NCBI GenBank assembly: GCA_018064755.1
Contig: JAGHUP010000022.1
Coordinates: forward strand, 1-32,626
Reading direction: 5' to 3'
DNA length: 32,626 nucleotides
Source of the DNA: Candidatus Crickella equi
Lineage (GTDB): Bacteria > Bacillota > Clostridia > Peptostreptococcales > Anaerovoracaceae
The notes under the pieces: generated by a model
Told to the model about the DNA's origin: nothing
What the model saw: only the letters and a program-made list of their open reading frames with translations
Database searches by the model: none
Program-made: the position numbers and the translations under genes
In this document: positions 27,885 through 31,346 of the stretch, piece by piece
How positions within the stretch are numbered: the first letter of the stretch is position 1
Layout of the letters: the number at the start of each line of letters is the position of its first letter

Positions 27885-28709
27885 TTAGAAAGATACCTGT
27901 ACGGATCCCTGATATTTCTCTTCGATGAATGCCTTAACTGCATCTGTCTGAAGAGCCTTAACGAGAGCCTGTACCTTGTCGCTGTTCTCATTACCAGCTG
28001 CGCAAGCGATGATATTAGCGAATGTTGTAGCTGCCTCAGAATCTGCTGCCTCGAATTTAATAGCATCATCAGCTGTGAGTCCACCGCCAATTGCATAGTT
28101 TCCGTTGATTACTGCAAGTGCGCACTCTGGCAGTGCACTTGGAAGAGTTGCTGCTTCGAGCTCCTTGAACTCAAGTCCAAGCTTGTTCTCAACGATATCG
28201 AGAGGAGTAGCTTCGAGGCCAACACCTTCCTTAAGTGTGATAACGCCGTTATCAGCGAGGAGCTGAAGTGCTCTTGCTTCGTTAGTTACGTCGTTAGGAA
28301 CAGCAATCTTATCGCCCTGTTCGAGAGCTTCGAAAGAATCCTTAGTTCCCTTGTAAACGCCAAGTGGCTCATAATGGATTGCAGCTGCAGTTGCGATATC
28401 TGTTCCGTTCTCCTCGTTGTACTGGTCGAGGTATGGCTGGTGCTGGAAATAGTTAGCATCGCACTCTCCGTTTACTACGGCCTCGTTAGGCTGTACATAG
28501 TCTTCGAACTCGATTACTTCGAGAGTCCATCCATCCTCTGCGAGAGCATCTGAAATCTCGTTCAGAATCTCTGCGTGTGGAGCCGGAGTAGCTGCTACCT
28601 TGATAGTCTTGTCTCCGTCTGATGAATCACTGCCACCGCAAGCTGTACAGAATGTGAGAGTGAATACGAGAGCAAGAACGACTACTAATACCTTCTTCAA
28701 ATTCTTCAT
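27885..28709 (-). CDS. metQ: Methionine-binding lipoprotein MetQ (NlpA family)
   Basis: The extracellular binding protein of the MetNIQ importer. Its 274 residues include a lipoprotein signal peptide ending at Cys24 (FCTAC, a slightly unusual lipobox with Cys at -3). The NlpA-family features KVAATPAPHAEILNEI, NYFQHQPYLDQYN and IAVPNDVTNEARALQLLADNGVI are visible. ATG 28709 follows GGGAGACACAAC. It is the last gene of metN-metI-metQ and is followed by a strong terminator. NlpA proteins can bind L-Met, D-Met or Met-dipeptides; the Met-rich leader upstream of the operon supports methionine. Confidence 0.93.
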   Translation of the reverse strand: MKNLKKVLVVVLALVFTLTFCTACGGSDSSDGDKTIKVAATPAPHAEILNEISDALAEDGWTLEVIEFEDYVQPNEAVVNGECDANYFQHQPYLDQYNEENGTDIATAAAIHYEPLGVYKGTKDSFEALEQGDKIAVPNDVTNEARALQLLADNGVITLKEGVGLEATPLDIVENKLGLEFKELEAATLPSALPECALAVINGNYAIGGGLTADDAIKFEAADSEAATTFANIIACAAGNENSDKVQALVKALQTDAVKAFIEEKYQGSVQVSF

Positions 28710-28758: not shown

Positions 28759-29421
28759 TTAGTTAATACGATTGTCGAGCTTGGCCGCAATCTTAAGTCC
28801 AATTTCCTGCATTATCTGTACCAAGATAACCAGGACGATAACTGTAATCCACATGATTGCCGGTTGGAATCTGTAAAGTCCATATCTGATAGCGATATCT
28901 CCGAGTCCACCACCGCCGATTGATCCTGCCATTGCCGAGTAGCCAAGAATTGTAATTGTTGCTACAGCGGCTCCGTTGAGAAGTGATGGTCTTGCTTCGA
29001 GCAGCATTACCTTGCGGATAATCTGCATATTGCTAGCACCCATCGACTGAGCTGCTTCGATAACGCCTGCGTCTACTTCGAGCAGTGACTGCTCTACCAT
29101 TCTTGCTACAAATGGTGCCGCTGCTACAATCAGTGCAGCTGTAGTTGCCGAAGTTCCAATTCCCGTGCCGATGATCTTACGAATATATGGCATCAGTGCA
29201 ATCATCAGAATCAGGAACGGTACGGATCTTACTACGTTAACGATAAATCCCATGATTTTGTTATACCAACCAACAGGCTTGATTCCGTTGGATGAAGTAA
29301 CAATAAGCGATACGCCAATTGGAAGTCCAATAACGTATGACACGAACGTTGCCACCAGTGTCATGTACAGAGTCTGGACAAGTCCCTCGCCGAGAAGGCC
29401 AATAAGTTGTGATGTTTCCAT
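28759..29421 (-). CDS. metI: Methionine ABC transporter permease MetI
   Basis: The membrane permease of the MetNIQ importer (220 aa). About five transmembrane helices are visible, with the ABC-contacting EAA-type loop VIEAAQSMGASNMQIIRKVM near 130-150 and the family motif GGLGDIAIRYGLYRF near the C-terminus. The start codon overlaps the metN stop as TAATG, so the two are translationally coupled; metQ follows after 49 bases. Confidence 0.93.
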   Translation of the reverse strand: METSQLIGLLGEGLVQTLYMTLVATFVSYVIGLPIGVSLIVTSSNGIKPVGWYNKIMGFIVNVVRSVPFLILMIALMPYIRKIIGTGIGTSATTAALIVAAAPFVARMVEQSLLEVDAGVIEAAQSMGASNMQIIRKVMLLEARPSLLNGAAVATITILGYSAMAGSIGGGGLGDIAIRYGLYRFQPAIMWITVIVLVILVQIMQEIGLKIAAKLDNRIN

Positions 29422-30446
29422 TATTCGACCTCCCCTTCTACTTCAAGTTCTGTAAATACTACGTCCTCTTTTATCAAGAACGCTCTCTGTTTTTCAGCAA
29501 TTTCTGGATCATCTGACAAACAGATTACCATTGTTCCCTTCTGAACGCCGTCAACAACATCCATGTCCGCATAGAGGAAGTTAACCGGTGCCTTGAGCTC
29601 CATTATCATCCTGGAGATGATTGGCTTGTGTGCATCCTTGCCATCAAACACAAGTCTAAGCCTGCTCTTGGTCGATGTCTTTCCCGTCAGTTCCTTCTGT
29701 CCATCCGGGAAGAAGAGCTTCTTAGCTGCCGGAGTTTTAGGGTGTGCGAATATCTCCTGTACATCGCCCTTTTCTACGATTTCTCCGCTCTCGATGATGG
29801 CTACATCCTTGCAGATCTGCTTGATAACGTCCATCTCGTGAGTGATTACTACCAAAGTGATGCCGCGTTCCTCGTTAATTTTCTTGAGGAGAGCCAGGAT
29901 TGCTCTTGTAGTCTTCGGGTCGAGTGCTGAAGTTGCCTCATCGCAGAGGATTACTTCAGGATCGCTAGCCAGAGCTCTTGCAATTGCTACTCTCTGCTTC
30001 TGTCCTCCAGACAGCTGCGATGGATAGGAGTGTGCTCTCTCCTCTAGGTCTACAACCTTGAGAAGTTCCATTGCTTTGGCCTCGGCTTCCTTCTTAGGAA
30101 CGCCTGCCAGCTCCAGTGGGAAACAAACATTACCGATTGCGTCCCTCTGCATCAGCAGATTGAACTGCTGGAATATCATTGAAATCTTGTGTCTCTTCTG
30201 GTTGAGCTCGCTCTGCTTGAGACTCATCAGGTTCTCACCGTCGAAGATGACTTTGCCCTCAGTTGGCGTCTCCAGCAGGTTGATTGTTCTGACCAAAGTG
30301 GACTTGCCTGCTCCGGAGAGTCCGATGATACCATAAGCATCGCCAGCCTTGATGTCCAGATTGATGTCCTTCAGTGCAACTACCTTGCCGCTCTTGGTCT
30401 CGAACTCCTTGGTAACGCCCTGAAGGCTAATAATAGTGTCGCTCAT
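29421..30446 (-). CDS. metN: Methionine ABC transporter ATP-binding protein MetN
   Basis: The ATPase of the MetNIQ importer. ATG 30446 (341 aa, MSDTIISLQG) is preferred: AAAGGA precedes it, and a longer reading would run into the leader terminator. Motifs are Walker A GLSGAGKST (42-50), signature LSGGQKQR (145-152), Walker B ILCDEATSALD (166-176) and the switch His in VVITHEMD (H203). Residues 261-335 form the C-terminal NIL domain, which in E. coli MetN binds methionine and stops transport when the cell is replete. It is the first structural gene, 28 bases after the leader terminator. Confidence 0.94.
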   Translation of the reverse strand: MSDTIISLQGVTKEFETKSGKVVALKDINLDIKAGDAYGIIGLSGAGKSTLVRTINLLETPTEGKVIFDGENLMSLKQSELNQKRHKISMIFQQFNLLMQRDAIGNVCFPLELAGVPKKEAEAKAMELLKVVDLEERAHSYPSQLSGGQKQRVAIARALASDPEVILCDEATSALDPKTTRAILALLKKINEERGITLVVITHEMDVIKQICKDVAIIESGEIVEKGDVQEIFAHPKTPAAKKLFFPDGQKELTGKTSTKSRLRLVFDGKDAHKPIISRMIMELKAPVNFLYADMDVVDGVQKGTMVICLSDDPEIAEKQRAFLIKEDVVFTELEVEGEVE

Positions 30447-30466: not shown

Positions 30467-30501
30467 ATAAATAAGGGAGGCGGTCCAACGACCTGCCTCC
30501 C
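30467..30501 (-). terminator. Intrinsic terminator (attenuator) in the metN leader
   Basis: The minus-strand RNA GGGAGGC-A-GGUC-GUUG-GACC-GCCUCCC (30501-30475) makes an 11-bp stem with one bulged A and a tetraloop, followed by UUAUUUAUU. It is the most GC-rich element of the region. It lies between the Met-rich leader ORF (stop at 30556) and metN (start 30446), so it should control entry of polymerase into metNIQ. Confidence 0.82.
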
Positions 30502-30546
30502 GTGATTAACATTCAATCGAAAGCATCATAGTATGCCGTTATGACC
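30482..30546 (-). promoter_or_regulatory. Candidate alternative pairings in the metN leader
   Basis: GGUC-AU-AACGGC (30546-30535), 10 bases past the leader stop codon, can pair over 10 bp with GUCGUU-G-GACC (30492-30482), the inner stem and loop of the terminator, with one small internal loop and one G-U pair. This would act as an antiterminator. A competing 8-bp helix joins AUUAACAU (30560-30553, over the stop codon) with AUGUUAAU (30512-30505) just before the terminator. The pairings are read from sequence; which one acts in the cell is not clear. Confidence 0.4.
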
Positions 30547-30555
30547 TATCCTATG

Positions 30556-30624
30556 TTAATTGTTTGCAGCGCACATGCACATGCCCATCATTTCCATGTT
30601 CATCATCATAATGCTATTTCTCAT
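30556..30624 (-). CDS. Methionine-rich leader peptide of metNIQ (22 aa)
   Basis: A 22-codon ORF starts at ATG 30624 behind AAAGGAG (9-base spacing) and ends at TAA 30556. Nine residues are Met, eight of them internal: residues 5-18 read IMMMNMEMMGMCMC, and two Cys alternate with Met at 15-18. It lies on a transcript from a good promoter 37 bases upstream and is followed by an intrinsic terminator and then the methionine importer genes. By analogy with trp, his, leu and ilv leaders, the clustered Met codons would make the ribosome pause when elongator Met-tRNA is scarce. The Cys codons might add a response to cysteine. An alternative, a metal-binding Met/Cys micropeptide, is less likely given position and terminator. 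Confidence 0.82.
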   Translation of the reverse strand: MRNSIMMMNMEMMGMCMCAANN

Positions 30625-30660
30625 GTGAATGTGCTCCTTTCATAGAATAAGTACACATTG

Positions 30661-30689
30661 AATATAGCAACTGCATCTATAAAAGTCAA
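30661..30689 (-). promoter_or_regulatory. Promoter of the metNIQ leader/operon
   Basis: On the minus strand TTGACT (30689-30684), 17 bases and TATATT (30666-30661) form a near-consensus sigma-A promoter. Transcription would begin near 30654, giving a leader of about 187 nt to the terminator, almost the same as in the liv leader. The DNA from 30690 to 30746 is AT-rich and shows nothing else I recognise. Confidence 0.8.
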
Positions 30690-30746: not shown

Positions 30747-31346
30747 TTATTTCTTGTTGGACTTTTCAAGTTTGCCCTTAACGGCATCGTCCATCTCAGC
30801 ATCGACGCACTTTTCAGCCAGATACTCGTAAAGTCGATCCTTCTCCTCATCACTATCGAAAGCTCTTACCGGCAGCTGCAGTGCCATTGCATCGCTCAGC
30901 CAGATATATATAGCCTTCTCTGTACGAGTTACTTTAACGACCTCTTCATAAGTGAAGTCTTTTTCCTGACCCTTGTAGCAAGCGTCGAATCCATCGTCAT
31001 TAAAGTCCAGCGTAGTAGGCTCTGCGTGAATCTCATCCAGTGTATATCCACTACGCTTGATCTCTGCCTCCTGACGGTTGAGTGTAATCTTCTCTGCAGC
31101 CAAACCATATCCTACAGCCATTGCAAGGATGAATCCGCCAAGATAGTAGATTGGCTTGGAGTGGAATCCCATTACCAGAGCCAGGATGACATATCCAACG
31201 AATATTGCAGGGAATACCATTCTCTGCTGCCATACAACCTTTCTACCTTTCTTAGTATTCTGAATGTAATAGCGGTTAAACTCAATTGTATCGTCTTGAG
31301 TTAGTGTGTATTTAGGATGTAAATAGTTGCTTTTCTTTCTTGCCAT
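30747..31346 (-). CDS. YcxB-like membrane protein
   Basis: A 199-residue protein with two adjacent hydrophobic helices (about 43-60 and 65-84) between a basic N-terminus and a soluble C-terminal half. The order of polar N-terminal segment (YTLTQDDTIEFNRYYIQN), helix pair and then a beta-rich part (YTYEEVVKVTRTEKAIYIWLSDAMALQLPVRAF) matches the YcxB-like family, whose function is unknown. ATG 31346 follows AAAGGGAAAAGAT. It has its own promoter, divergent from gpsA, and no obvious operon partner; the metNIQ promoter begins 58 bases past its stop. Confidence 0.75.
   Translation of the reverse strand: MARKKSNYLHPKYTLTQDDTIEFNRYYIQNTKKGRKVVWQQRMVFPAIFVGYVILALVMGFHSKPIYYLGGFILAMAVGYGLAAEKITLNRQEAEIKRSGYTLDEIHAEPTTLDFNDDGFDACYKGQEKDFTYEEVVKVTRTEKAIYIWLSDAMALQLPVRAFDSDEEKDRLYEYLAEKCVDAEMDDAVKGKLEKSNKK

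Follow-up and report, generated by a model that had tools for sequence, protein, structure and literature searches.

Leader-peptide attenuators responding to amino acids are known for trp, his, leu and ilv, and a partial pairing of the ribosome binding site (RBS) is also known for trp leaders. In mycobacteria, attenuators built on poly-cysteine leaderless ORFs have reportedly been described (by Canestrari in 2020, going by the title), and these would share with the locus considered here the sensing of a sulfur amino acid by translation of a short ORF, theirs being cysteine and leaderless. In Bacillota, His leaders have been predicted before hisS/hisZ in bacilli (PMC2965389), and the ilv-leu genes of S. 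aureus are preceded by a leader for Leu/Ile (PMC5794164). A leader for methionine itself, termed 'metL', was predicted in 2021 upstream of metNIQ in Streptomyces lividans TK24; it is a peptide of 29 aa with two internal Met and the ending CMCRRMCAF, is carried on a leaderless transcript, is proposed to be methionine-dependent, has no typical terminator according to its authors and comes from one genome (PMC8079986). It is the only earlier Met leader peptide found in the open-licence literature searched, a body of text that leaves most subscription journals outside. The preliminary description of the present locus, which knew of no described Met leader of this kind, is to be amended in this respect.

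Other sensors also act at methionine genes. A Met-T-box stands before the met transporter operon of L. lactis (PMC7058034), and the Met T-box of metICFE-mdh in S. aureus prefers initiator tRNA (PMC3771891). The SAM (S-box) riboswitch RF00162 likewise controls methionine genes, but senses SAM.

The locus presented here lies in a gut Clostridia bacterium, Candidatus Crickella equi, within a contig stretch of 32,626 nt that is referred to throughout as the window. Positions 30467-30689 very probably attenuate the transcription of metNIQ by means of a translating ribosome that responds to how far elongator tRNA-Met is charged, a reading based on the anatomy of the region and its conservation. Like the amino-acid attenuators above, the clostridial leader comprises a short ORF enriched for the amino acid under control, an RBS of its own, an intrinsic terminator immediately ahead of the operon and a putative competing antiterminator; unlike them, its amino acid, Met, doubles as the initiator, its target is an importer, and its RBS pairs with its own control codons. 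With metL it shares a position before metNIQ and a CMC..MC run, in a comparison drawn from the quoted peptide, and the sequence evidence for it is much stronger than that for metL, itself a weaker prediction. With the Met-T-box it would share the coupling of Met-tRNA charging to a terminator ahead of methionine transport or synthesis genes; the T-box, however, binds uncharged tRNA directly, whilst the internal Met codons of the clostridial leader are read by elongator tRNA. Given the initiator preference described for the S. aureus T-box, T-box and leader peptide would respond to separate tRNA pools. Methionine is the sole amino acid whose starvation should hit initiation too, such that the signal also governs ribosome loading. 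A Met leader would thus probe ribosome-based sensing where the signal controls loading, with the difference between initiator and elongator pools directly testable, and would extend to methionine the small number of leader-peptide systems put forward for Bacillota.

Anatomy of the metNIQ leader region

The features of the region are collected in Table 1. The promoter matches the consensus at 10 of 12 positions and has a TG ahead of the -10 element; the same leader in locus L189 has TTGACA, 17 nt and TATATT upstream. All eight internal Met of the leader ORF fall within residues 6-17. The terminator hairpin comprises 7 + 4 = 11 bp with one bulged A (-22.5 kcal/mol), and the metN ATG, at 30446, follows 28 bases 3′ of it. 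A simple terminator scan called no terminator at 30475-30501, probably because of the bulge. The promoter, RBS, 22-codon ORF with nine Met, 11-bp terminator and metN 28 bases on had all been set out in the preliminary description, correctly in every detail.

Table 1. Features of the metNIQ leader region and its neighbours in the window, with one metY leader from another locus
Feature	Position	Strand	Remarks
YcxB-like protein gene	30747..31346	-	PF14317; directly upstream of leader, same strand
metNIQ promoter	30661..30689	-	-35 TTGACT 30689-30684, 17-nt spacer, -10 TATATT 30666-30661
Strand A CTTATTCTATG	30641..30651	-	Near expected transcript 5′ end; partner is strand B
Shine-Dalgarno site AAAGGAG	30634..30640	-	9 nt 5′ of leader ATG
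P2 5′ strand GCACATTCACATG	30622..30634	-	Shine-Dalgarno end, spacer and start codon; pairs with MCMC codons
Leader ORF MRNSIMMMNMEMMGMCMCAANN	30556..30624	-	ATG 30624 to TAA 30556; 22 aa, 9 Met, 2 Cys
P2 3′ strand CATGTGCATGTGC	30571..30583	-	MCMC codons inside leader ORF; compensatory changes
Strand B CATAGGATAG	30546..30555	-	Immediately 3′ of leader stop codon; partner is strand A
Strand D AGGTCATAACG	30537..30547	-	5′ strand of putative antiterminator; partner is strand E
Strand E CGTTGGACC	30482..30490	-	Terminator loop and inner 3′ arm; 3′ strand of putative antiterminator
Intrinsic terminator hairpin	30475..30501	-	T-rich tail TTATTTATTG at 30474-30465
metN, MetNIQ importer ATPase, C-terminal NIL domain	29421..30446	-	TIGR02314 best; PF09383 above cut-off
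metI, permease	28759..29421	-	NF008049 MetI best, 201.9 bits against cut-off 212; PF00528
metQ, NlpA-type substrate-binding lipoprotein	27885..28709	-	MetQ best, 171.4 bits against cut-off 374
Met/Cys-rich leader with terminator before metY	L265 1403-1489		

The best family for the metN product, TIGR02314 (MetN), is reached at 354.9 bits against an NCBI cut-off of 499.7, and the metQ product passes the Pfam family PF03180 (261.2 bits, cut-off 27). As MetN, MetI and MetQ are all under their NCBI cut-offs, methionine is the presumed substrate of the importer.

The density of Met was scored as the number of internal Met per 12 residues of a short ORF, with a cut-off of 5 for divergent loci. Within the 450 nt preceding metN, the best short ORF scores 8 on this measure, whilst 3000 dinucleotide shuffles of that stretch gave a maximum of 5, seen 9 times, and none attained 8; the window's Met-rich ORF is therefore not due to chance. 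Amongst control windows from related loci, 1 of 1805 attains 5 Met in 12, and shuffles of all metN upstreams, close and other, yielded no Met-dense ORF (0/3560).

An Rfam scan of the window matched no family, neither the T-box (RF00230) nor the SAM riboswitch (RF00162). In the genome as a whole, a draft of 1.39 Mb that is 82 % complete, no T-box was found at the curated score for RF00230, and one SAM riboswitch was matched (C11:71748-71856), placed not at metNIQ but before metK (TIGR01034, 557.7 bits, cut-off 309.4). That riboswitch is present in 44 of 47 same-genus genomes. SAM and Met-tRNA thus appear to be read at separate genes, metK and metNIQ, within the same cell. For metY, there was no match in this genome at the threshold used.

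Conservation in the genus and close set

The core motif ATGGGNATGTGYATGTGY, allowing at most one mismatch, occurs in 45 of the 47 same-genus genomes, and the two without it (G007 and G012) gave no metN match either, at E 1e-80. Twenty-two of the 45 motif loci, the window included, were reached via metN; the other 23 were taken by the motif itself, and metN lies downstream in 22 of them, the contig of L240 coming to an end. Across 391 class-sample genomes the exact motif is found in one, the window's own, at metN. Three draft genomes (G017, G018 and G019) carry two metN loci each, both with the leader motif, and may be mixed strains; the extra exact copy of the motif in G017 marks its other metN locus, which lies where a contig stops.

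A close set was defined by a metN at least 71 % identical to that of the window, every other metN being no more than 64 % identical. It contains 38 distinct upstreams, 35 of which have at least 400 nt and were counted, with L012, L021 and L065 omitted as cut by contig ends. All 35 have a Met-dense ORF upstream of metN. A typical leader in this set reads M..MMMEMGMMGMCMCRADE and is preceded by GAAAGGAG, with the core MEMGMMGMCMC nearly invariant. At each of the six core ATG columns all 58 rows retain ATG, and the two core Gly codons are identical in 57 and 58 of 58; for comparison, the commonest third base at the invariant Gly columns of metN has a mean share of 0.51. The core is therefore fixed even at synonymous positions, which points to constraint on the RNA as well as on the peptide.

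This bears on what the preliminary description had expected of relatives, namely a short Met-rich ORF with a terminator conserved upstream of metN, and drift in the underlying DNA. The first is found, both within the genus and, as shown below, amongst clearly divergent leaders from other families, and lends support to its reading of Met attenuation. The second is not seen within the genus, where the core codons are fixed even synonymously and the MCMC codons have the leader RBS as a pairing partner.

A nearly invariant peptide core would also suit an arrest by the nascent chain, in which, as with arrest peptides in general, it would be the Met/Cys-rich product that halts its own ribosome in response to methionine or SAM, without tRNA starvation. 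The synonymous positions are fixed too, however, in keeping with a constraint on RNA, and the property common to divergent leaders is Met richness rather than a sequence, such that arrest of this kind is improbable.

A strict terminator scan missed 15 of the 35 close loci, although by eye the hairpin is present in all of these except L014. In L014 the 3′ half of the terminator is missing, and L023 and L061 are missing the antiterminator strand D; either may be an assembly error. L012, L013 and L016 hold a second, decayed leader copy or remnant between terminator and metN (ATGATGATGGAATTGAGAATGATGGACATGTGCATGTGC in L013), as if duplicated.

The plus strand of the window contains a His-rich frame at 30541-30645 (MTYPMLIVCSAHAHAHHFHVHHHNAISHVNVLLS), and the Met-rich ORF might be taken as merely its mirror, particularly as chance Met/Cys frames of a mirror-like kind occur elsewhere. 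Were this frame the real ORF, its His codons (CAT or CAC) would let ATG drift to GTG, yet all six core columns remain ATG in every row. Moreover, an antisense start codon with a Shine-Dalgarno-like stretch exists in 1 of 33 sequences, and the promoter, the terminator and metN are all on the minus strand, leaving a His-rich gene with practically no credibility at this locus. The frames in question elsewhere, in L193 and L274, are short, rich in Met and Cys and resemble the reverse of His-rich genes, a trap for searches by Met content only. Amongst matches to the core motif with one mismatch, those in G436, G001 and G010 were rejected as lying inside long open frames, and that in G011 (C23) as a Met-rich frame of 30 residues with the look of a His-rich gene read in antisense.

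RNA pairing and the proposed switch

Pairing was assessed in an alignment (A1) of 33 close-set leaders. The terminator covaries: both partners have changed in 18 cells, of which the outermost pair accounts for 12, and 0 of 500 shuffles score as high. Strands A and B are paired in 95.1 % of cells over the 33 sequences, against 28-64 % when slid, and show 2 double changes. The P2 helix, between the Shine-Dalgarno end, spacer and start codon on one side and the MCMC codons on the other, is paired in 96.2 % of cells, again with 2 double changes and with no more than 3 of 33 rows breaking an outer pair. In L011, L047 (equal to L231), L230 and L248, where a Cys codon has become one for Arg, the spacer is altered to match and P2 pairing is retained. 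The Cys to Arg change occurs in 5 of 58 close-set rows (some rows duplicate one contig), with Met codons and RNA pairing kept.

For D:E, 89.2 % of cells are paired, compared with 12-45 % when slid; there are 4 double changes, and 25 of 500 shuffles scored as high. The duplex has an energy of -15.4 kcal/mol in the window; of nine leaders tried, seven were parsed, with values of -13 to -16 kcal/mol in six and -10.5 in L068. A conserved antiterminator strand complementary to the terminator is thus predicted across the close set apart from L023 and L061, with weak covariation. Together with the compensated helix between RBS and MCMC codons, this putative antiterminator supports the notion of a switch.

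In the order of events proposed, a ribosome would load on the leader before the distal Met/Cys codons are transcribed. With Met-tRNA plentiful, it would complete the ORF and depart, whereupon the leader would close, A upon B and the RBS upon its own MCMC codons, hindering reloading and favouring the terminator. With Met-tRNA scarce, the ribosome would wait on the Met run and the leader would stay open, allowing D to pair with E, which spans the terminator loop and 3′ arm, and RNA polymerase to read into metNIQ. The direction of control, i.e. more uptake when Met is scarce, is the one suggested by the function of the genes. An empty leader is predicted to terminate, meaning that read-through would be confined to conditions in which initiation works and elongator Met-tRNA is short.

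The scheme was compared with a ribosome-footprint folding model of 43 leaders in which no pairing is permitted across the ribosome, a set that includes L023 and L061 (without D) and L241 (not parsed). At the moment E emerges, D:E prevails whatever the ribosome is doing; even an empty leader has on average 7.0 D:E pairs against 0.9 for the terminator. With the terminator half made, mean pairs in D:E and terminator, respectively, are 1.2 and 6.4 for the empty leader, 4.0-5.2 and 4.0-4.7 (an even balance) for a ribosome stalled on Met codons, and 5.7 and 3.4 for a ribosome at the stop codon. Unlike in textbook attenuators, masking of the second strand by a ribosome at the stop codon is not reproduced in this model, because D is free in 32 of the 43 leaders; it is fully masked in L042 and L232, which have a later stop codon. 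As D:E fares at least as well with a ribosome at the stop codon as with a Met stall, the contrast between plenty and scarcity would depend on the ribosome leaving. In a variant of the model where A:B closes around the stalled ribosome, stalls at early Met codons leave D unfreed (L022, L001), and the terminator, once fully emerged, wins at equilibrium in every state amongst those listed. Overall, the modelling fits read-through while a ribosome lingers, termination once it has gone, and a helix of RBS and MCMC codons that would hinder a second ribosome; the exact order of pairing as proposed has about an even chance of being right.

Divergent leaders at other metN genes and at metY

Leaders of other sequence but of the same Met-rich composition stand before metN elsewhere in Clostridia, for example in L076 (MMNMMDMCMGMCMCTF), L087, L089 and L091, and that of Herbinix hemicellulosilytica (L082, Lachnospiraceae; MCNMCDMCGMCNMYDM) contains four MC pairs. 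The class sample comprises 95 of the metN matches listed, mostly the best-scoring, and provides 94 upstreams, two of them identical, with L161 omitted as too short. ORFs with at least 5 Met in 12 residues precede metN at 9 of these 94 loci, a proportion that, given so selected a sample, is no estimate for the whole class, and at 10 of 49 other loci; the other 85 class-sample upstreams have no such ORF, and none of 2860 corresponding shuffles of class-sample and other loci passes the cut-off. Class-sample genomes with divergent metN leaders include G229, G355, G288, G391, G278, G327 and G400. L082, L200 and L222, with a Met density of 4, lie below the cut-off and outside the 19 counted.

In 19 of 19 divergent cases a terminator lies between leader and metN; leader-less loci have one in 68 of 124, scored over the last 300 nt, a different stretch that makes the two figures not strictly comparable. 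The ORFs are mostly preceded by a purine-rich Shine-Dalgarno stretch. Across the 22 divergent leaders, which were selected for Met content, internal ATG triplets fall 161 times in frame and 10 times out of frame, and a chance ATG repeat was rejected on this ground. Neither T-box nor SAM riboswitch was found, at Rfam curated scores, at any of 20 divergent leader loci (17 of the 19 together with L082, L200 and L222), where only tRNAs matched; from the close set, the locus scanned was that of the window. Of 60 class-sample loci without a leader, a T-box was seen at five, a sense-oriented SAM riboswitch at four, and neither at 51.

These observations also weigh on whether the region is a translation-independent riboswitch, i.e. 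a ligand-binding RNA in which the ORF is incidental. The long conserved helices A:B and P2 and the conserved terminator loop would accord with this, but no riboswitch family is seen in the window or at the 20 divergent loci, the ATG triplets are overwhelmingly in one frame and mostly behind a purine-rich Shine-Dalgarno, and by eye the RNA sequence is not retained in distant leaders. As it is a Met-rich ORF, and not an RNA, that the divergent loci have in common, the riboswitch reading was rejected as highly improbable.

A looser Met/Cys leader pattern matched in 18 of 391 class genomes. Judged by the printed frames alone, those kept were the window, G229, G185 and G078 with its equal G283, whilst the matches in the remaining 13 genomes were dismissed as coding sequence or accidental. 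The leader in G229 is at metN, and that in G185 has a terminator, its contig stopping before the gene. G078 and G283, with an identical locus that is counted once, have an RBS, MIIELVISMDMCMCSMDMHAKKCMSAVF and a terminator, followed by metY, a gene of methionine synthesis encoding an O-acetylhomoserine sulfhydrylase (TIGR01326, 633.8 bits, cut-off 495.1). When 30 metY upstreams were viewed, the best-scoring among 179 matching genomes, leaders were seen in the G078/G283 rows and in L299, the latter reading MTTHIFVIIMMCMCVMCALSFYGMQCLLRIYHSFKE, with a Met density of 4 (below the cut-off), a terminator, and a promoter matching the consensus at 12 of 12 positions. L301, behind which no terminator was seen, was left out of the metY leaders. 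An Rfam scan of 14 metY loci, both leader lineages included, found no family. Because the same arrangement is found at metY, the leader seems to go with methionine genes rather than with metN as such, the metY support being two lineages, and an annotation rule is gained for short ORFs upstream of metN and metY.

The recurrence of this arrangement likewise bears on the peptide being a functional small protein, for instance one binding metal through Met and Cys, with an unrelated terminator. Its Met- and Cys-rich composition does resemble that of metal-binding peptides, yet a terminator intervenes between peptide and gene in the 19 divergent metN cases and the two metY cases, and the genus motif is confined to one of the 391 class genomes, at metN, so a small protein has only a very slim likelihood.

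The place of cysteine is less clear-cut. The leader may sense Met and Cys jointly, with both as control codons, through a link in sulfur metabolism, given that Cys makes up 9.1 % of residues in the 22 divergent leaders, with MCMC, repeated MC or CC patterns (as in Herbinix), and that both metY leaders contain Cys as well. On the other hand, the leaders of L091 and L032 are without Cys, and the Arg substitutions in the close set leave Met codons and RNA pairing in place; joint sensing is accordingly a tentative and rather unlikely reading beside the attenuator that answers to Met-tRNA.

More broadly, judgement is evenly divided on whether these leaders form a widespread, fast-diverging class of Met/Cys attenuators at metNIQ and metY of Clostridia, which would replace the Met-T-box and read elongator rather than initiator Met-tRNA; in some members the control codons would seal the leader RBS, so that no ribosome after the first on a given transcript would report, and SAM would be read separately at metK in the same cell. 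Sequestration of the RBS by the leader is not universal: in a chosen subset, no more than 5 of 100 shuffles scored as high in 5 of 6 close leaders and in 5 of 10 and 3 of 10 other leaders. Amongst the divergent leaders, L141, L164, L177 and L262 make up a subfamily with a CCSHIAFCSYL-like end, and in L141, L164 and L262 the start region ATGAGAAC has its complement, GTTCTCAT, in the distal part of the ORF.
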